DNA of 21,279 nt, from the IMG/VR virus record IMGVR_UViG_3300010373_000144, positions 1 to 21,279 of that record; one strand, written 5' to 3'. The translations under genes and the position numbers were made by a program. The stretch comes from a virus. The notes under the pieces are model-generated. The model saw nothing but the letters and a program-made list of their open reading frames with translations. It did no database searches and had not been told where the DNA came from. Below are positions 2,793-18,622 of this stretch, in pieces. Position 1 is the stretch's first letter. Each line of letters opens with the position of its first letter.

Positions 2793-3415
2793 CGGAGAAC
2801 CTTTCTTGTCAAGGCATCACTTACCGTCCAACCTCGCGTCAGGCGCGCGAGAATCGTTCCATCGGCGATTCCTGTAAGCTCAGACCATTCGGAAACACAC
2901 GCTTCTTTACCTTCGTGGGACAAGATACGCGCGACACTTCTGTTGCGTGTTTGTTCTTTTGGCGTCGCCCATCGGCAATTACCGGGCTCGTAACCCCCGC
3001 TCTGGTTGGGCCATCTGTCGATCGAAGTGCCGTTTGGTCGATCGCCCATATCTGCATAGAAATTCTCGAATGTGCGCCACCGCTCACAGACGGTGATGCC
3101 TTGTCCTCCCCATCGCGGGTAGTCCTTCGAACCTGTATCAAAACAACGAGTCATCATCGCCGCCCAACTGCGGTGCTCTGGTGTATGAGACATTCCGTGG
3201 CGACGATTCTTAAAGCCCTGCGCGCGGATAAGCTCTTTATTGAGGCATCCGCACGACTTCGTCTTTCCACTTTTGAGGTTGCACCCACGAACGAAACTCG
3301 GTGCGCCGCAGTCGCATATACACCTCCATAAGCTTCCGCTTGTGTTGCTGGGCAATCGCTCAACAACCATCAATCGGCCAAATCGTTCGCCAGTCAATTG
3401 CAATGCAAGTGTCAT
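2789..3415 (-). CDS. Free-standing homing-type endonuclease (zinc motif plus NUMOD-like tail)
   Basis: This 208-residue protein starts at 3415, with GGAG about 8 nt upstream. Residues 32-57 hold a C-x-C-x-C...C-x-C arrangement (CICDCG then SCGC), a zinc-binding motif common in phage HNH/AP2-type homing nucleases. The central segment is RHGMSHTPEHRSWAAMM, then WGGQGITVCERWRTFENFY, then a segment ending in GYEPGNCRWATPKEQTRNRS, which matches the well-known phage family with the GI-VC-RW-F-F and NCRWAT signature. The last 45 residues (CVSEWSELTGIADGTILARL) look like a NUMOD-type DNA-binding repeat. A selfish DNA-cleaving role is inferred. It splits the otherwise continuous chain of small early genes, so insertion is likely. 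Confidence 0.8.
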   Translation of the reverse strand: MTLALQLTGERFGRLMVVERLPSNTSGSLWRCICDCGAPSFVRGCNLKSGKTKSCGCLNKELIRAQGFKNRRHGMSHTPEHRSWAAMMTRCFDTGSKDYPRWGGQGITVCERWRTFENFYADMGDRPNGTSIDRWPNQSGGYEPGNCRWATPKEQTRNRSVARILSHEGKEACVSEWSELTGIADGTILARLTRGWTVSDALTRKVLR

Positions 3416-3417
3416 AT

Positions 3418-3498
3418 TCAAATCTCCATTGCTTTGCGCACGATGCCGGCGCGCGTGACGTGGGTGCGGCAGTTGAGGGGGGTGGACATGGTGCTCAT
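3418..3498 (-). CDS. 26-residue ORF, possibly a truncated gene
   Basis: An ATG at 3498 overlaps the upstream TGA (ATGA), following the coupling rule of this operon, and opens 26 codons: MSTMSTPLNCRTHVTRAG, then IVRKAMEI and stop. The stop lies 2 nt before the nuclease start. It may be a genuine micro-gene, or the 5' stump of a longer gene interrupted by the homing nuclease, whose remainder would be the 62-residue gene at 2604-2792. The sequence alone cannot decide. Confidence 0.45.
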   Translation of the reverse strand: MSTMSTPLNCRTHVTRAGIVRKAMEI

Positions 3499-5227: not shown

Positions 5228-5482
5228 CTAGAACCGGGTTTCGATGGCGTTCATCTCTTTCGCAACCTGCCCCAGTTCATCCGACAAGCTGAGCACCATG
5301 CCCCGCGCAAAGGTTGGATTGACCAGGCAGTGGCCGGCAATCGTGGTGATGTAGCGCGATTTCCTCATGGTGGCCGCAACGGCAATGCCGGTGATGCTGC
5401 CCGTGCGTGCGTTCTCCAGCATCAGCTCAAGCACCTCGACAACATCCTTCGACACACTGCCGCGCATCAAACGAAAGGTCAT
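5228..5482 (-). CDS. Hypothetical protein coupled to repressor
   Basis: This 84-residue protein begins at an ATG overlapping the repressor stop (ATGA) and ends 18 bp before the operon terminator. It reads SKDVVEVLELMLENARTGSI, then ITTIAGHCLVNPTFARGMVL. The pattern of an acidic helix, G-I-x-G-x-A, a basic RSRYI-like turn, then AGxxxxNPTFARGM is familiar from many prophages of Burkholderiales and relatives, where it is unnamed. Because it is co-expressed with the repressor it is likely made in the lysogen. No role can be given. Confidence 0.8.
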   Translation of the reverse strand: MTFRLMRGSVSKDVVEVLELMLENARTGSITGIAVAATMRKSRYITTIAGHCLVNPTFARGMVLSLSDELGQVAKEMNAIETRF

Positions 5483-6048
5483 GATTTCCCCGCTCTTTTT
5501 GCCTCGATATGTTTTTGCGTACGCGCTAGCTTTTTAGCCGCCACGGTCGCGCGCAATTTACGGTCTTGTTCCGATGTTGCCGTGATGGGTATTTCTGGCG
5601 TCGTGTCGGCAGCCTCTGTAACTCGGGCGCCGGATGCCGCCTCTAGCATGGCAGCGATCTCTGCGTGGCCCTCGGGGCTTTCCGCTAAGCTTGCCAGCAG
5701 GAGGCCAGCGCGGTGCCGGGTGCTCGCCGGCATCCTGAGTAATTTATCGCTCAGCGCCTCAAGGATCTGTCCCAGTGTGGGCGCTGTGAGGTTGGTCGGC
5801 GCCGGCGCATTTTGGGCTTCCGGGGGCGCCGTCTCTTCGGCAGTCATTGATCCCTCGCCGGTCGCCAGCCAGAGCGCATTAACCCCATATTTACTGGCAT
5901 AGACGGGCGTATCGGAGGAGCCGTGCCCCGTGCGCTCTGCCGTGGAGATCGTGCTCTGCCGTATGCCCGTCAGCTTCTGGGCCTCCATCTGTTTCAGGCC
6001 CGCGTACAGCCGTGCGGCCCTAAGTCTTTTTCCGTATTCAGTCGCCAT
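5479..6048 (-). CDS. Phage repressor, XRE-type HTH, no S24 peptidase domain visible
   Basis: This 189-residue protein starts at 6048 (MATEYGKRLRAARLYAGLKQ), with CAGGATA upstream; a longer frame upstream would cross pR and Cro. Residues about 4-60 are an XRE-family helix-turn-helix ending in the typical KYGVNALWLATGEGSM. Residues 70-140 are Ala/Pro-rich and helical. The C-terminus is basic (KLRATVAAKKLARTQKHIEA). CI repressors cleaved with RecA help are usually 210-240 residues with a C-terminal S24 (LexA-like) domain carrying Ser and Lys; I see none here. It is transcribed away from the Cro-like gene in the classical switch arrangement and should bind the AACGG-N4-CCGTT operators. Induction must work by a route other than self-cleavage, if this reading is right. 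Confidence 0.88.
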   Translation of the reverse strand: MATEYGKRLRAARLYAGLKQMEAQKLTGIRQSTISTAERTGHGSSDTPVYASKYGVNALWLATGEGSMTAEETAPPEAQNAPAPTNLTAPTLGQILEALSDKLLRMPASTRHRAGLLLASLAESPEGHAEIAAMLEAASGARVTEAADTTPEIPITATSEQDRKLRATVAAKKLARTQKHIEAKRAGKS

Positions 6049-6072
6049 GTTTTTATCCTGACTGAATTTGTT

Positions 6073-6086
6073 ATCAGAAACCCGTT
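6073..6086. promoter_or_regulatory. Weak operator OR2 (ATCAG-N4-CCGTT)
   Basis: The right arm is intact and the left arm is one base from that of OL2. It overlaps the first bases of the pR -35 and lies 22 bp from OR1, so the two-site spacing seen at pL is nearly repeated here. Confidence 0.5.
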
Positions 6087-12977: not shown

Positions 12978-13120
12978 AGTTCATCCGCAAAACGCTCGCC
13001 GGCATCGGCAGCGCCATCATTTGGGTGCTCGACATGATCGCCACTGTACTGGTGGGCATCCTGTTTTTCATTACGTTTGTCGGCGTGCAGGTGGCATCTT
13101 GGACGGGGAGTAAGTCGTGA
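12974..13120 (+). CDS. Small single-pass membrane protein
   Basis: A GTG at 12974 overlaps the previous TGA, with AAGGTGGA just upstream, and the frame ends at 13120 overlapping the next GTG. The 48-residue product starts MKFIRKTLAGIGSAIIWV and continues as a hydrophobic stretch (VLDMIATVLVGILFFITFVG). It predicts one long or two short membrane segments after a positive N-terminus. No family is recognised. It is clearly part of the coupled chain. Confidence 0.75.
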   Translation: MKFIRKTLAGIGSAIIWVLDMIATVLVGILFFITFVGVQVASWTGSKS

Positions 13121-13449
13121 GCAAGTACGGCGCAGTCAAAACAACCGTGGACGGCATCGTTTTCGACTCGAAAGCCGAGGCGCGCAGGTACGGCGAGCTG
13201 CTGATTCTGGAGCGGGCCGGGTATATCGCCGGCCTGCACCGTCAGCCCGTCTATGTGCTCGCGCCGGCAGTAGTAATCGGCGGCCGCAGGAAGCCAGCGC
13301 TTCGCTACAAGCCCGATTTTTGCTATGTTGATGCAAAGACTGGCGCGACGGTGCTGGAGGATGTGAAGGGCGTCATCACCCCACTGTTTCGCGTGAAACA
13401 GCACCTTATGGCGACCGTGCACGGTATTGAAGTGGTGGTGGTCGCATGA
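13117..13449 (+). CDS. DUF1064 protein, PD-(D/E)xK nuclease-like
   Basis: This 110-residue protein begins at a GTG coupled to the upstream stop. It matches DUF1064 (PF06356): GIVFDSKAEARRYGEL with E21, RYKPDFCYVD with D67, and VLEDVKG with D82-x-K84. That E...D...(D/E)xK order is the catalytic pattern of the PD-(D/E)xK superfamily, and DUF1064 proteins are often placed near phage recombination genes as possible Holliday-junction or flap nucleases. Here it lies before the Nin-like genes, which fits a DNA recombination or repair role. Activity is inferred. Confidence 0.85.
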   Translation: MSKYGAVKTTVDGIVFDSKAEARRYGELLILERAGYIAGLHRQPVYVLAPAVVIGGRRKPALRYKPDFCYVDAKTGATVLEDVKGVITPLFRVKQHLMATVHGIEVVVVA

Positions 13450-13742
13450 AGACATACGTTGCGGGGCCGATGAGTGGCTTGCCAGATTTCAATTTTCCAG
13501 CCTTCCACGCCGAAGCCGCTCGTTTGCGCGCCTGCGGCGATACGGTCCTGAATCCTGCTGAAAACGCCGAGCCGCCCTGCAAGTCATGGGAGGGTTACAT
13601 GCGCATGGCGATTGCACAGGTGGTTCAGTGCGATGCGGTTTTCATGCTGTCTGGCTGGGAGGATTCCCGCGGCGCGCGGCTTGAACACCGGATCGCGAAA
13701 GAACTGGGGCTGACGATTGCTTATCAGCGGGCGCCGGTATGA
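13446..13742 (+). CDS. DUF4406 protein, nucleoside deoxyribosyltransferase-like
   Basis: This 98-residue protein (MKTYVAGPMSGLPDFNFPAF through IAKELGLTIAYQRAPV) matches DUF4406 (PF14359). The hallmark is the N-terminal strand with VAGPMSG, the NFPAFHAEAARLRA helix, DAVFMLSGWEDSRGARLEHR, and E near the second helix. The family shares the fold of nucleoside 2-deoxyribosyltransferases, which cleave or exchange bases on deoxynucleosides. In phages it may act in nucleotide salvage or modification, but the reaction is not proven. ATGA coupling on both sides. Confidence 0.88.
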   Translation: MKTYVAGPMSGLPDFNFPAFHAEAARLRACGDTVLNPAENAEPPCKSWEGYMRMAIAQVVQCDAVFMLSGWEDSRGARLEHRIAKELGLTIAYQRAPV

Positions 13743-14155
13743 GCGAACGCCTCACATTCGCCCTTTGGAATGCACAGCAGGGTTTTGAGCAACTCAACAA
13801 GGCGTGGCACCACGCGAAGGCGCACCTGATCGCGGGCCGGCGCATGACGCTGGAGCTGCGCGAGGAAAAGCGCAGCAATGCGCAAAACCGGCGTCTGTGG
13901 GCGATGCTGGCAGACATCAGCCAGCAAGTGGACTGGTACGGCAAGAAGCTCGCGCCAGAGGATTGGAAGCACGTTTTTACCGCGAGCCTGAAGAAACTTG
14001 ATGTCGTTCCCAATCTTGACGGAACAGGGTTTGTCGCGCTCGGCATGCATACCAGCCGCATGACCAAAGCGGAAATGAGCGATATGCAAACGCTCATGGA
14101 AGCCTTCGGCGCAGAGAAGGGCGTGCAGTTTCGCGCGGCTGAGGAGTGCGCATGA
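13739..14155 (+). CDS. ninB: NinB-family recombination protein
   Basis: This 138-residue protein matches lambda NinB (Orf, PF05772) in length and signature: NEQ-type N-terminus, a basic strand-helix (GRRMTLELREEKRSNAQNRR, LWAMLADIS), DWYGKKLAPEDWKHVFTASL and GMHTSRMTKAEMSDMQTLME. Lambda Orf binds single-stranded DNA and SSB and replaces host RecFOR during Red recombination. The ERF gene in the left arm is the likely partner here. Start and stop are both coupled to neighbours. Confidence 0.92.
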   Translation: MSERLTFALWNAQQGFEQLNKAWHHAKAHLIAGRRMTLELREEKRSNAQNRRLWAMLADISQQVDWYGKKLAPEDWKHVFTASLKKLDVVPNLDGTGFVALGMHTSRMTKAEMSDMQTLMEAFGAEKGVQFRAAEECA

Positions 14156-14436
14156 GCACCATCGCCGAAAAGCAGTGGATGGGCCGCGTTGCCGCTTTGG
14201 GGTGCTACCTGTGCCAACACCTCGGCTACGGCGCCACGCCGGCCCAGGTTCACCACTTACGCGAGGGACAAGGCATGTCGCAGCGTGCCAGTAACTGGCT
14301 GGTGGCGCCGCTCTGCGACAAGCACCACGCGAACAGCAGCCCGGACGGTATCCACGGCCAGCGCCGCGCGTGGAAGTTGGCCCACGTTGATGAAATGGAC
14401 GCCCTGGCATGGGTGATCGAAAGGCTCTCAAAGTGA
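14152..14436 (+). CDS. Ref-like HNH nuclease
   Basis: This 94-residue protein starts at 14152 (MSTIAEKQWMGRVAALGCYL), where ATG overlaps the NinB stop. It has C18-x-x-C21, H34-H35, and LCDKHH at 54-59, with GIHG further on. This matches the Ref family (recombination enhancement function, RecA-dependent nuclease domain, PF16786), first described in phage P1. P1 Ref cuts DNA within RecA-made D-loops. The gene order NinB-Ref resembles the nin region of lambda, where NinG takes this place. A role in processing recombination intermediates is likely. Confidence 0.85.
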   Translation: MSTIAEKQWMGRVAALGCYLCQHLGYGATPAQVHHLREGQGMSQRASNWLVAPLCDKHHANSSPDGIHGQRRAWKLAHVDEMDALAWVIERLSK

Positions 14437-14672
14437 AAGACAGCGCAACAATCTGGAAGCACGTCCTGCATGAAGGCATCTGCGCGACCGATGAAGTCGC
14501 CAGGGCCCTATGCATGCCGCAACCCATGGTCATGAAATCCCTGAACCAGCTTGCTAAATACGGCAGCCTCAAGCGCTACGAGCGCGAGGAAGGCAGTGAT
14601 TTCATGCGCTACGGCGTGACCAAGGAATGCAAGGTGCCGCAGGGTGTGACGGTGCGGGAGGTGCTCGAATGA
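14433..14672 (+). CDS. Winged-helix-like hypothetical protein
   Basis: I chose the GTG at 14433, which overlaps the Ref stop (GTGA) and has AAAGG upstream; an ATG at 14409 in frame would overlap Ref by 28 nt. The 79 residues (MKDSATIWKHVLHEGICATD, then EVARALCMPQPMVMKSLNQL) form a helix-turn-helix followed by a wing-like strand pair (GSLKRYEREEGSDFMRYGVT). DNA binding is likely; the target is unknown. It is followed by a second protein of similar plan, so the pair may work together. Confidence 0.72.
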   Translation: MKDSATIWKHVLHEGICATDEVARALCMPQPMVMKSLNQLAKYGSLKRYEREEGSDFMRYGVTKECKVPQGVTVREVLE

Positions 14673-15022
14673 CCAAACCCACAGGCAAACCCAAGGGTCG
14701 CCCCATCGGCGAGAAAACGAAATCGGTATGCGCGGCGCTGGATGGCCGTCCGGGGACCGCGCGCCAGGTCAAGGATCGCGCCGGCCTGACCAGCAAGGAA
14801 GCCCAAAAGGTGCTCGCCCAGGGTGCCGTCATGGGCCTCTTCGAGCGCGATAAAAGTCACTCGCCACAGGTCTGGTCGGTGATCGAGGACTGGCGCGAGG
14901 CCATTGGGCAGCGCAAGCTCGCCCCGGTGCCGCGCTATGAGGGGCCGCGTCAGACGCCATTTACGGGCGACCGGCTGGCGCTGCAGCGGGTATGGGGCTC
15001 TGTGGTCGGTCAATCTTTATAA
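14669..15022 (+). CDS. Hypothetical DNA-binding protein (AT-hook-like start, wHTH)
   Basis: This 117-residue protein is coupled by ATGA. The N-terminus (MTKPTGKPKGRPIGEKTKSV) contains KPKGRP, an AT-hook-like segment. Residues 20-65 (VCAALDGRPGTARQVKDRAG, then LTSKEAQKVLAQGAVMGLFE) form a helix-turn-helix with a wing. A basic, proline-rich tail follows. It ends 12 bp before the putative late regulator. A transcription role is plausible; no family is recognised. Confidence 0.72.
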   Translation: MTKPTGKPKGRPIGEKTKSVCAALDGRPGTARQVKDRAGLTSKEAQKVLAQGAVMGLFERDKSHSPQVWSVIEDWREAIGQRKLAPVPRYEGPRQTPFTGDRLALQRVWGSVVGQSL

Positions 15023-15034
15023 AAAGGGGAATGC

Positions 15035-15415
15035 ATGGTGCGCGACGAAACCGACAATCTGCTGGATGACCTGATTTCATCGTGGTATCGCTGGGCCAAA
15101 GACTGGACTGGCGTGGCTCAGCACGGCGCCTGCGCGATGTTTGCAGGCGTCAAGAACTCGCGCCAGTGGGACAGCGAAAACGACGTTGTCGATAGCACAT
15201 TGCACAACGAGACCATGAAAGCAGTCGATTTCCATTTATCTGAGCTGCCCCCGGTGTATCGAACCGCGATCCAGCTGCAGGCGCGTAATTTGGCCTGCGG
15301 CGTGAACGTGTGGACAAGCCCGCGCCTGCCGACTGACCCGTTCGAGCGCACCACGATTTTGATCGAGGCCAGGACGACCCTGCTGCGCCGGCTGATTGGG
15401 GCTGGCGTGTGCTGA
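15035..15415 (+). CDS. Putative late-gene regulator (Q- or ArpU/RinA-like by position)
   Basis: This 126-residue protein starts at 15035 after AAGGGG (about 7 nt). It has an acidic start (MVRDETDNLLDDLISSWYRW), a middle segment (NSRQWDSENDVVDSTLHNET, MKAVDFHLSELPPVYRTAIQ) and a basic helical end (TTILIEARTTLLRRLIGA). The ELPPVYRTAIQLQA-R segment recalls region-4-like helix-turn-helix proteins of the phage late-regulator groups (antitermination Q, ArpU and RinA). The position, last gene of the rightward early operon just before the promoter-terminator-tRNA area, also fits. I cannot place it in one of these families with certainty. Confidence 0.6.
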   Translation: MVRDETDNLLDDLISSWYRWAKDWTGVAQHGACAMFAGVKNSRQWDSENDVVDSTLHNETMKAVDFHLSELPPVYRTAIQLQARNLACGVNVWTSPRLPTDPFERTTILIEARTTLLRRLIGAGVC

Positions 15416-15419
15416 ATAG

Positions 15420-15448
15420 TTGATTACTGTAAGAATTCACAGTAAAAT
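15420..15448 (+). promoter_or_regulatory. Promoter with LexA box in its spacer
   Basis: TTGATT (15420-15425), a 17-bp spacer and TAAAAT (15443-15448) form a plausible sigma70 promoter, predicted to start near 15455. The whole spacer is a palindrome that matches the SOS operator, so LexA should repress it. It lies 5 bp past the putative late regulator and drives the HNH-like gene at 15518. Confidence 0.75.
15425..15444. promoter_or_regulatory. LexA (SOS) box
   Basis: TACTGTAAGAATTCACAGTA fits the LexA consensus of beta- and gammaproteobacteria (taCTGT-N8-ACAGta) at every conserved position. The palindrome extends to TTACTGT...ACAGTAA at 15424-15445. It fills the spacer of the promoter above, the usual place for a repressing LexA site. 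Confidence 0.82.
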
Positions 15449-15517
15449 ATGCGCAGCGTTCACAGCTTGCAGGCCGTGAACGCCACTTCCCAAACCATCG
15501 TCAAAGGAACGAGCGGC

Positions 15518-15913
15518 ATGAGCACTTCTGATTCTACACATCAAAACTCAGTTAAATCTATTTCTTCATATAGGAAATATCAGTCTCACAGGAGTAACGC
15601 GAAACGACGCGGCATTGAATTCGACTTGACATACGACGAATGGCTGGAAATTTGGGGCCAGAAATTAGAAGATCGAGGCCGACTGTCCGGGCAATACGGC
15701 ATGCTGAGAACACGCGACGAAGGCGGTTATACGGTGGGAAACGTCAGAATTGGGACACCCAAGGAAAACCAGCAGGAAGCAGCCGTGGCCAAGAAAGTAA
15801 AAAGCGCCCAGACCAGGAAACCATTTGCGGATTTCTGTCCAAGGCCACCAACTGAGACCGCATGGATGTGGCGAAAGAATGTTTTTGCGGAATATTCTGA
15901 AGATGAGGAATAA
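15518..15913 (+). CDS. HNH-like endonuclease-family moron gene under LexA-box promoter
   Basis: This 131-residue protein starts at 15518 (MSTSDSTHQNSVKSISSYRK), with AAAGGAA about 9 nt upstream; an ATG at 15449 touches the -10 and lies upstream of the predicted transcript start, so it is excluded. The core (YRKYQSHRSNAKRRGIEFDL, TYDEWLEIWGQ, then GGYTVGNVRIGTPKENQQEA) matches a phage family of HNH-like nucleases whose signature is an AKRRGI-F-LT-EEW segment followed by Y-VGNVRI-T--EN. The first 70 bp are visibly richer in A and T than neighbouring genes, suggesting separate origin. It is uncoupled and has its own SOS-type promoter. Nuclease activity is inferred. Confidence 0.72.
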   Translation: MSTSDSTHQNSVKSISSYRKYQSHRSNAKRRGIEFDLTYDEWLEIWGQKLEDRGRLSGQYGMLRTRDEGGYTVGNVRIGTPKENQQEAAVAKKVKSAQTRKPFADFCPRPPTETAWMWRKNVFAEYSEDEE

Positions 15914-15918
15914 AACGC

Positions 15919-15947
15919 TTGACATTAGGTTGGATATCGTTTCGAAT
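15919..15947 (+). promoter_or_regulatory. Putative pR'-like late promoter
   Basis: TTGACA (6/6) at 15919-15924, a 17-bp spacer, and TCGAAT (4/6) at 15942-15947. A transcript from about 15954 would meet a terminator at 16007-16030, giving an RNA of about 75 nt. The arrangement, directly after a putative late regulator and upstream of packaging genes, resembles lambda pR'-tR'. Confidence 0.5.
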
Positions 15948-16006
15948 ACGTGTGTGGGCGCGAGCGTGGGTGAGTGAATCGCACGTAACTGCCTCCAGAA
16001 TTTCCC

Positions 16007-16030
16007 AAGCCACCCTAGCGGTGGCTTTTT
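16007..16030 (+). terminator. Rho-independent terminator 1
   Basis: AAGCCACC (16007-16014), a 5-nt loop and GGTGGCTT (16020-16027) form a perfect 8-bp stem followed by T. It is strong in the rightward direction and probably ends transcripts of the HNH-like gene or the short pR'-like RNA. Confidence 0.88.
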
Positions 16031-16089
16031 CGTATCCGGCAGCAATGCCGCGTGGCACGGCACAGCGCCATAAGCTGGCCACATTTTCG

Positions 16090-16121
16090 CCTCGCTGAGA
16101 TCATTCCAGTGAGGTCTTTTT
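16090..16121 (+). terminator. Rho-independent terminator 2
   Basis: An 8-bp stem with one G-U pair (16090-16097 with 16107-16114), a 9-nt loop and a TCTTTTT tail lie just 5 bp before the tRNA. Together with terminator 1 it forms a tandem block that late transcripts must pass. Confidence 0.72.
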
Positions 16122-16125
16122 GTTT

Positions 16126-16198
16126 GTGTCGGTAGCTCAACTGGCAGAGCAGCGGCCTCCAAAGCCGCGGGTTGAAGGTGCGACTCCTTCCCGGCCCG
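16126..16198 (+). tRNA. tRNA-Trp (CCA anticodon), slightly degenerate
   Basis: The cloverleaf is readable: acceptor GTGTCGG with CCGGCCC (one mismatch at pair 2-71), TA, D-arm GCTC/GAGC, anticodon stem GCGGC/GCCGC with loop CTCCAAA (anticodon CCA at 16159-16161), a 5-nt variable region, and T-stem GAAGG/CCTTC with loop TGCGACT. The expected second T of the T-loop is G. The 3' CCA is not exactly encoded. It is a phage-carried tRNA or a decaying one, about 260 bp before the late genes. Confidence 0.82.
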
Positions 16199-16460
16199 CC
16201 CATTTCAGTCGCCCCGAAGACGCATCACACGCACACGTCACAACGACCCGAGGTGCTGATCTTCGCGGGCGGCGAATCTCTCGCCACCTCTACCCAGCAG
16301 TTGCCATCCTGCCCGACAGGGCGCGGCACAGGTGTATGTGGCAAAGGCAGCGCTGGCCAGTGCCGTCGTAACGCCAGCAGTCCCAGCACGAGCAAAGGCG
16401 CAATCCGCTGTCTCCCGACCAATTGCGCGCGGGGCTGGGCATCTTTCACCAAGGATCATC
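16199..16460. other. 262-bp stretch without convincing gene
   Basis: Between the tRNA and the ribosome site of the gene at 16461 I see no frame with a good ribosome site or family resemblance on either strand. Frames that cross it begin inside the tRNA or run out of frame into the next gene. It likely holds late leader RNA or unresolved control sequence. Confidence 0.5.
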
Positions 16461-16658
16461 ATGAGCATTGCAGACATCAAGGGCTATATCGAGGGCCACC
16501 TGGCCAGCGCAGGAGACGACTTGAAGCAGAAATTCGCCGAGGTGGTCGCCTTCGTGGAGGGCAAGGAAACCGAGGCTGCGACTGTGGCTGCCGAAGTCGC
16601 CGATCTGACCGCGCGCGGGTACACCGTGACGGCGCCGGCCGACCAACCTGCTGCCTAA
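16461..16658 (+). CDS. Small acidic hypothetical protein, first late ORF
   Basis: This 65-residue protein starts at 16461 (MSIADIKGYIEGHLASAGDD) after AAGGATCATC, a good ribosome site; an upstream in-frame ATG at 16332 lacks one. It is a charged helical protein (LKQKFAEVVAFVEGKETEAA, TVAAEVADLTARGYTVTA) ending in a Pro/Ala tail. Small helical proteins at this position before terS are common in phages, but I cannot name it. Confidence 0.72.
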   Translation: MSIADIKGYIEGHLASAGDDLKQKFAEVVAFVEGKETEAATVAAEVADLTARGYTVTAPADQPAA

Positions 16659-16661
16659 ATC

Positions 16662-16727
16662 ATGAGCCTACTGACGTTTTGGGCGATTCTGCTGGGCGTC
16701 ATGTGGTTGTGCTGGTATGGGGCGTAA
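16662..16727 (+). CDS. 21-residue hydrophobic micro-ORF overlapping terS start
   Basis: From ATG 16662 the 21 codons encode MSLLTFWAILLGVMWLCWYG-A, a single membrane helix. The stop at 16725-16727 overlaps the terS start by 11 nt. It has no clear ribosome site, yet terS also lacks one, so translation of this peptide may serve to deliver ribosomes to terS. Its length means chance is possible. Confidence 0.4.
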   Translation: MSLLTFWAILLGVMWLCWYGA

Positions 16728-17304
16728 GTCCAAGCTGACCGAGAGCCAGTGGGCGGACATTGAAAAGCGGCTGCTCGAAGGCGAGGCATCCAGGGCGCTC
16801 GCCAAAGAGTTTGGCGTCTCTGAGGGGCTTATCCGCAAGCGCAAAGGTACGCGGGTCAAGCAGATAAAAGCCGTTGGGAATCAAATAGTTACGGCAGAGC
16901 TTGCTTATCGGGCGCTCGATTCTGGTACGCGGGAAGGTACGCAGCGGTACGCAGCCAAGCTCCTTGCGATCAGCGATGACATGCTGGACGGCGCAGCCCA
17001 TGCGGCTTCGACGTTCCGACAACTCAGCGCCATCGCGAGCACGGAAATGCAAAAGGTCGATGTCGTGGACCCGCACCTGTCGCTGGACACGCTCAAGAAC
17101 GTTTCCGCTTTGACCTCGATGGCGAACGAGGCCGCCAAGACGCCGATCAACCTGATCGCAGCCAACAAAGAGGCGGTGCGGGATATGGCGCAAGTCGATA
17201 ACCCGGCCGCCAAGACCATCACATGGGACGAGTTTTATGGAAAGCCGCCCAAGTCTAAACAACGGGGTTCTGGAGTCGTTTTGGAGAACACCGGCACGCA
17301 ATAG
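16717..17304 (+). CDS. terS: Terminase small subunit
   Basis: This 195-residue protein starts at 16717 (MGRKSKLTESQWADIEKRLL). Residues 7-45 are a helix-turn-helix (WADIEKRLLEGEASRALAKE, FGVSEGLIRKRK), the DNA-recognition part of phage small terminases. The middle is a helical oligomerisation region. The C-terminus is ITWDEFYGKPPKSKQRGS and would contact the large subunit. The terL start lies 68 nt before the terS end. It selects phage DNA for packaging and starts the late packaging module. The call rests on fold and location beside terL. Confidence 0.85.
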   Translation: MGRKSKLTESQWADIEKRLLEGEASRALAKEFGVSEGLIRKRKGTRVKQIKAVGNQIVTAELAYRALDSGTREGTQRYAAKLLAISDDMLDGAAHAASTFRQLSAIASTEMQKVDVVDPHLSLDTLKNVSALTSMANEAAKTPINLIAANKEAVRDMAQVDNPAAKTITWDEFYGKPPKSKQRGSGVVLENTGTQ

Positions 17305-18622
17305 GGTGTTGTACGGTGGCCGCAGCTCGGGCAAGTCCTGGGCCACGGCTGAGGCGGCGATTGTGCTGGCGCAGTGCATGAAGCTGCGGTTTCTGTGCAC
17401 TCGGCAGTTCCAGAACAAGATCGAGGAATCGGTCTACACGCTGCTCAAGATCCAGATCGAGAGGTTCGGCTGGCAGGCCAAATTCAAGATCACGGACAAC
17501 AAGATCGTCTGTCTGACGACTGGCAGCGAGTTCGTGTTCTATGGCCTGTGGCGCGCCATTGACGAAATCAAGTCTCTCGAATCCATCGATGTGCACTGGG
17601 CCGAAGAGGCCCACCTGATGACCGAATCCCAGTGGTTGGTCATTGACCCGACTCTGAGAAAAGAGGGCTCACAGCACTGGATTGTTTTCAATCCTCGCCT
17701 GTCAACCGATTTCATTTACAAGCGGTTCGTCACCAGCCCGCCGCCCGACACCATCGTCAGGAAGCTGAACTACACGGAAAACCCGTTTCTCAGCGACACG
17801 ATCAAAAAGGTGATCGAAGCTGCAAAAGCCGAGGATTACGACGAATACGCGCACATCTACCTGGGCGAGCCCCGCCAGGACGACGATGCGGTCATCATCA
17901 AGCGCTCGTGGATTCTGGCGGCGATTGACGCGCATGTGAAGCTTGGCTTTGAGGCATCGGGTGCGCGGCGTATCGGCTATGACGTGGCCGATAGCGGGCA
18001 GGACAAGTGCGCCAATGTCTACGCGCGAGGCTCCGTGGTGAGCTGGGCCGACGAGTGGAAGGCTGGCGAGGATGAGCTGCTGAAAAGCTGCTCGCGCACC
18101 TATAACGCAGCGCGGGAGCGTCAGGCATCAGTGGCTTACGACTCGATTGGCGTGGGCGCCGGCTCGGGCGCGAAGTTCAACGAGATCAACGAGCAGCGCA
18201 AGACGGAAGGCGAGACCTTCATGGTGCAGCACGCCGGCTTCAACGCAGGCGGCGCGGTGTGTGACCCGGACTCGACGTATCTGCCGGGACGCACCAACAA
18301 AGACATGTTCAGCAACATCAAGGCGCAGGCCTGGTGGATGCTGGCGGACCGGTTCCGCAACACCTACAACGCGGTACAGCGCGGCGAGAAGTTCAGCGAC
18401 GACCAGCTGATCAGCATCGCCAGCGATTGCCCCCACCTGGACAAGCTCATTGATGAACTCTCGACACCTCGCCGTGACTACGACGCGAACGGGCGCGTGA
18501 AAGTGGAAAGCAAAAAGGATCTGGCTAAACGTGACGTGGCATCGCCGAATCTGGCGGATGCGTTCGTCATGTGCTTCCCGCCGAGCGCGCGCGCCATCGA
18601 AATTTGGGAGCGGCTGGCATGA
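17237..18622 (+). CDS. terL: Terminase large subunit (PBSX/Terminase_3 type)
   Basis: This 461-residue packaging motor has an ATPase with Walker A GGRSSGKS at residues 27-34 and Walker B ending in W121-A-E123-E124 (VHWAEEAHLM). The C-terminal RNase H-like nuclease has acidic residues D249 (RIGYDVADSGQDK), D302 (VAYDSIGVGAGSG) and D441 (NLADAFVMCF). The start at 17237 overlaps terS by 68 nt in another frame; no other start exists before Walker A except rare codons. The protein translocates DNA into the prohead and cuts concatemers. Length and motifs match the PBSX-type (PF04466) group. Confidence 0.95.
   Translation: MESRPSLNNGVLESFWRTPARNRVLYGGRSSGKSWATAEAAIVLAQCMKLRFLCTRQFQNKIEESVYTLLKIQIERFGWQAKFKITDNKIVCLTTGSEFVFYGLWRAIDEIKSLESIDVHWAEEAHLMTESQWLVIDPTLRKEGSQHWIVFNPRLSTDFIYKRFVTSPPPDTIVRKLNYTENPFLSDTIKKVIEAAKAEDYDEYAHIYLGEPRQDDDAVIIKRSWILAAIDAHVKLGFEASGARRIGYDVADSGQDKCANVYARGSVVSWADEWKAGEDELLKSCSRTYNAARERQASVAYDSIGVGAGSGAKFNEINEQRKTEGETFMVQHAGFNAGGAVCDPDSTYLPGRTNKDMFSNIKAQAWWMLADRFRNTYNAVQRGEKFSDDQLISIASDCPHLDKLIDELSTPRRDYDANGRVKVESKKDLAKRDVASPNLADAFVMCFPPSARAIEIWERLA

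Follow-up and report, generated by a model that had tools for sequence, protein, structure and literature searches.

A viral DNA of 21,279 bases, a single contig assembled from an environmental metagenome sample and referred to here at its full length as the window, carries a LexA box that exactly fills the spacer of a promoter ahead of a small phage gene. We judge it probable that this arrangement is a LexA-repressed promoter in the style of recA, which would be opened by the SOS response and serve a monocistronic prophage accessory gene. The features on which the analysis draws are as follows.

5479–6081, minus strand: CI-like repressor gene with a helix-turn-helix and no S24 peptidase domain (domain searches)
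15035–15415, plus strand: Q-like late regulator gene, 126 amino acids (family A8, 15 relatives)
15420–15448, plus strand: sigma70-type promoter, TTGATT, 17 bp, TAAAAT (promoter scan)
15425–15444, no strand assigned: LexA (SOS) box TACTGTAAGAATTCACAGTA (pattern search of the window)
15456–15483, plus strand: inverted repeat GCGTTCAC...GTGAACGC that forms the 5′ hairpin of the predicted SOS transcript (repeat search, folding)
15503–15508, plus strand: Shine-Dalgarno-like AAAGGA (sequence)
15518–15913, plus strand: HNH-like accessory gene, 131 amino acids, likely start ATG 15518 (PHROG matches, family alignment, AlphaFold2, orthologs in L216 and L251)
15919–15947, plus strand: late promoter (pR′-like), TTGACA at 15919–15924 and a weak −10-like TCGAAT at 15942–15947 (position-conserved TTGAC(A/G) in relatives)
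16007–16035, plus strand: intrinsic terminator (tR′-like), predicted end of the SOS transcript (terminator scan; same place in relatives)
16125–16202, plus strand: tRNA-Trp (CCA) in the late leader (a tRNA-Trp also follows the ortholog in L251)

The stretch from 15420 to 15448 reads TTGATTACTGTAAGAATTCACAGTAAAAT, with TTGATT at 15420–15425 and TAAAAT at 15443–15448 separated by a 17-bp spacer that is filled by the box at 15425–15444. The original prediction placed the two hexamers and the box at these positions, and this observation is confirmed. Both the perfect pattern TACTGTN8ACAGTA and its shorter core CTGTN8ACAG match once in the 21,279 bases, in each case at the box. By chance, a window of this length is expected to hold 6e-5 perfect boxes under a first-order Markov model and 5e-4 if bases are independent, and the shorter core is expected 0.2 times under the first-order model. 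The hexamers score 9 of 12 and by themselves are no better than chance; two promoter-like sites were found in total, compared with 1.6 ± 1.2 in shuffles, and TTGATT/TAAAAT is the only one on the plus strand within 13000–18000. For box and promoter geometry together the expectation falls to about 4.5e-7, for a pattern picked after the site was seen.

That the only perfect box (6e-5 expected) lies exactly in a promoter spacer supports the LexA reading, as does the occurrence of the same geometry in other viral contigs, where a scan with TTGNNTACTGTN8ACAGTANNNT returned at least 80 loci (L134–L213). Because the box shares the last base of the −35 hexamer and the first two bases of the −10 hexamer, bound LexA would exclude RNA polymerase. 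The recA promoter of E. coli is built alike, in that its LexA box fills a 16-bp spacer and touches both hexamers, whereas the window site belongs to a phage gene, has a 17-bp spacer and carries atypical inner bases.

The large terminase has its best named-genome relatives in Caballeronia, Paraburkholderia, Burkholderia and Achromobacter, with Pseudomonas agarici close (70–73% identity), and these relatives are mostly beta- and gammaproteobacterial. Most LexA proteins of these two classes bind CTGT-N8-ACAG, with known exceptions (PMC3323433). The terminase relatives thus point to a presumed beta- or gammaproteobacterial host using this box, which favours LexA repression as the most likely control of the promoter. 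Among eight Burkholderiales genomes reached through terminase relatives, seven hold perfect boxes (1–6 per genome, compared with 0–1 for a reversed-pattern control), and in four of the eight, boxes with one or two mismatches lie at the lexA locus.

The box had been described as matching the SOS operator at every conserved position. This is correct for the outer bases (12 of 12), but the inner eight, AAGAATTC, score −6.9 bits, compared with −2.1 to 11.2 for 28 perfect Burkholderiales boxes, whose inner positions are strongly biased (A or T and then T after CTGT). The octamer therefore scores below all 28 sites from this presumed host group, and above 83% of random octamers of similar GC content. 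With complete outer contacts and poor inner bases, the site probably falls below the highest affinity, and inner bases that are atypical for the presumed hosts weaken the LexA reading.

Weak matches to phrog_79 (anti-termination protein Q-like) were found in 5 of the 15 members of family A8 (best E 0.0039) and not for the window copy of the Q-like gene. Downstream of this gene, no more than about 25 bp away, nine relatives carry TTGACA or TTGACG with a spacer and a −10-like sequence behind it; most of the nine then have an intrinsic terminator within about 100 bp. Q, pR′ and tR′ of lambdoid phages occur in the same order as the Q-like gene, late promoter and terminator. While the Q-like gene stands directly before the late promoter and early terminator in the nine relatives, the window has an extra unit of about 500 bp between them, made up of the LexA promoter, the 5′ hairpin, the Shine-Dalgarno sequence and the 131-amino-acid gene, which stops 5 bp short of the late −35 element. 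The gene had been located between the putative late regulator and the packaging genes, which is accurate and can be made more precise, since it lies between the Q-like gene and the late promoter belonging to that gene (TTGACA at 15919–15924). A first search of genome contigs with the Q-like profile returned nothing; the family occurs in a single one of the 399 Burkholderiales genomes, and the 369 genomes searched from the wider class yielded no member, which by itself says little.

The accessory gene probably starts at ATG 15518 and not at ATG 15449, since AAAGGA lies nine bases upstream of the former and the latter touches the −10 element. Host LexA would occupy the box in the promoter spacer and keep the gene silent in the lysogen, and on DNA damage RecA-driven cleavage of LexA would free the promoter. 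The first downstream terminator is that at 16007–16035, so the predicted SOS transcript is monocistronic and about 0.55 kb long, with putative ends at about 15455 and, in the late-leader terminator, near 16030. Expression of the gene would then be early and would not depend on late transcription, and the leader of about 100 bp, with a LexA promoter for this gene alone, uncouples it from the Q-like gene.

Folding of the 78-nt leader yields an ordinary energy (z −0.6). The inverted repeat at 15456–15483 was considered as a phage repressor operator and rejected, as it is single copy in the window. A mobile promoter cassette was likewise rejected, the leader having no match in phages; its one 40-bp match, on an Acinetobacter plasmid before an AAA ATPase gene, was judged to be chance.

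Comparison with related contigs reveals that the same gene is wired differently elsewhere. In L082, whose Q-like protein is 83% identical to that of the window, nothing lies between the Q-like gene and the late promoter. An ortholog of the HNH-like gene sits at the same place in L216 (77% identical over the core and 54% over the whole), where its start codon overlaps the Q-like stop codon (TTTGATG), leader and box are missing, and the late TTGACA follows directly. The description of the gene as uncoupled applies to the window, where it has its own leader of about 100 bp, but not to L216, where the two genes are coupled; promoter, box and the leader that carries them are thus specific to the window. 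A further ortholog, 61% identical, lies in L251 just past the late promoter and terminator and just before tRNA-Trp, again without a box, in a contig whose Q-like gene is 45% identical to that of the window. Control of the HNH-like gene therefore differs in three ways: coupled to the Q-like gene (L216), behind the late terminator (L251), or preceded by a LexA box (window).

The box is not conserved more widely, which weakens the LexA reading. No perfect box was found in 80 terminase relatives, where the few near matches (one or two mismatches) sit elsewhere, or in 15 relatives with the Q-like gene, and none within two mismatches lies upstream of 23 HNH-like relatives. The 399 Burkholderiales genomes hold two distant members of the HNH-like family, without a perfect or near box. 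Since orthologs at or near the same place lack the box, a resident accessory gene appears to have come under LexA in the window lineage; we infer gain as the direction, although this one case fits loss in the other lineages as well. A gene with a LexA box between the late regulator and the late promoter was seen once in the data searched.

In L084 (230–1140) the corresponding stretch, from the Q-like gene to the late promoter, contains a different HNH gene, one that is canonical and unrelated. It is followed by an apparent repeat of the last Q-like codons, as though a copy of the 3′ end of the Q-like gene had come in with the insert. With HNH-type genes at or near this place in the window, L216, L251 and L084, the surroundings of the late promoter look like a landing site for such genes, and the HNH-like accessory gene is resident there in this phage group.

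The 131-amino-acid product matches an unnamed PHROG family (E 1.5e-16) as well as HNH endonuclease and endonuclease VII families; its matches to T4-type sigma70 decoy and Srd anti-sigma proteins are weaker. NUMOD3 is present in five members of its family and NUMOD1 in two. The AlphaFold2 model (mean pLDDT 83; good for residues 11–100, poor for the C-terminal tail) shows the HNH order of two strands and a helix (beta-beta-alpha). Its best solved match is PacI, at modest significance (Foldseek E 0.029, probability 1.00; Z 5.8 over 86 residues, rmsd 4.4), and a structural second look at the listed families brought out nothing except PacI. When solved structures were searched by sequence, the family profile had T4 I-TevI as its one weak match (C-terminal part, E 0.003), and the single protein gave a chance-level match only.

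The resemblance of the predicted fold to HNH proteins is in keeping with the HNH-like label of the original prediction, but every family member has Met/Arg at the first catalytic position and Asn at the last. In all 21 family sequences the H-N-H positions, as assigned from the predicted fold, are Met62/Arg64, Asn75 and Asn84. The family-wide absence of the catalytic histidines leaves nuclease activity a putative property; PacI itself has an unusual active site. We regard the product as most probably a DNA-binding protein from a family that is HNH-like and related to homing endonucleases, in plain terms an accessory or degenerate homing-type protein, and it may have no nuclease activity. At 14146–14433 of the window, 1 kb upstream of the box, there is a separate small HNH gene of canonical type that weakly matches RecA-dependent P1 Ref (E 1.8e-4).

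One other explanation shares the promoter mechanism and adds a function for the product, which as a Tum/GfoA-like antirepressor would inactivate a non-cleavable CI-like repressor and so couple prophage induction to SOS. Its interest stems from the phage repressor, which has a helix-turn-helix and no RecA-cleavable S24 domain. Gifsy phages have short non-cleavable repressors and a LexA unit outside the immunity region, and the window unit is similarly placed, beyond the replication genes (PMC3121763). The 21 kb seen contain no second LexA site, although the window is a fragment and other sites may exist outside it, and the weak sigma70 decoy and anti-sigma matches suggest that the fold can serve regulation. 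However, neither a DinI-like domain nor a match to a known antirepressor was found in the product (Pfam, PHROGs, NCBIfam). Moreover, the L251 ortholog, behind the late terminator, would come too late for an inducer, and neither it nor the L216 ortholog, after the Q-like gene, has a box. An antirepressor thus seems unlikely, and we give equally little credence to a broader proposal, a new family of SOS-triggered prophage switches in which a catalytically dead HNH fold would serve as antirepressor or transcription regulator, directed at the non-cleavable repressor or at late transcription.

It is also rather improbable that the box is a chance occurrence or relic that binds too little LexA to matter, leaving the gene to constitutive or read-through expression. 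Its poor inner bases, its lack of conservation in relatives, a host that is itself presumed and a CTGTN8ACAG core that alone is expected 0.2 times per window all agree with such an origin, yet the 12 outer bases are expected 6e-5 times before position is counted, and the leader in which the box fills a promoter spacer is absent from the L216 ortholog. Least probable to us is an active endonuclease made under SOS, either an HNH packaging nuclease acting as terminase partner or a RecA-linked nuclease like P1 Ref, itself of the HNH type, which works together with RecA and enhances the SOS response (PMC4713147). Proximity to the packaging genes and an HNH-like fold with PacI as best solved match would suit such an enzyme, but Met/Arg and Asn replace the HNH histidines in 21 of 21 family members, and the missing catalytic residues make a Ref-like role less likely. 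Ref itself is under the C1 repressor and not LexA (PMC4713147), and the window has its separate canonical HNH gene at 14146–14433 with the weak Ref-like match.

The preferred reading, an accessory gene repressed by LexA, resembles several known systems in part. Freestanding HNH/NUMOD homing-endonuclease-like genes of the T4 type belong to the same sequence family, and some relatives lie among tRNA genes, but the window copy differs in lacking a NUMOD module and in having its own putative SOS promoter, and mobility would be hypothetical for it. Phage morons are likewise short units with their own promoter between genes that are adjacent in sister phages. The L216 ortholog differs in having no promoter of its own, which means that gene and promoter were not acquired together as a fixed unit.

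LexA-controlled genes of temperate phages include tum of coliphage 186, antC of N15, gfoA and gftA of the Gifsy phages and coi of P1. Like the gene described here, they lie outside the immunity region and have promoters overlapped by a LexA box, and the Gifsy phages share with the window a repressor without a cleavable domain (PMC3121763). The window product differs in belonging to an HNH-like family, in the absence of a DinI domain and in having antirepression as a candidate function only, and its gene differs in lying between a Q-like gene and the late promoter and in having orthologs without LexA control. LexA-controlled phage genes are therefore already known, whereas the gene family, the place and the differing wiring among relatives are new. 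Should the LexA reading be true, the relatives would show three kinds of wiring for one phage gene at one genomic place, a direct example of SOS control gained via a single promoter, and the gene would be a candidate for DNA-damage sensing by a phage with a non-cleavable repressor.

Several observations concern the late leader itself. Its tRNAs include tRNA-Trp (CCA) at 16125–16202 of the window and at 3428–3503 of L251, and an odd Phe call with anticodon AAA at 3066–3150 of L082. At the leader start, just after the −10 element, a motif like GGnGGATAACTnGCCTCTAnAATTT is common to L240, L216, L242, L245, L249 and L087 and is a candidate site for the Q-like protein. A search for a covarying RNA element in the late leader gave an empty consensus fold. 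The roughly 237 bp at 16228–16464, without clear coding function and before the packaging genes, are 86% identical to L082:3552–3781, despite terminases that are unrelated at this level; they are a candidate cos/pac site or structured leader.

The contig scan also points to other phage genes that may be under LexA. In 35 of the at least 80 loci listed, the box lies about 25 bp before members of one integrase gene family (MAIRKLNTGKWLCECYLNGR...), for example at L139:4471–4499 and in L143, L151 and L189, which suggests that the integrase is under LexA control in that prophage group. Two unrelated contigs, L156 (7281, minus strand) and L210 (4496), have the box-in-spacer geometry before a small phrog_2707 gene, making phrog_2707 a candidate second family of LexA-controlled phage genes.
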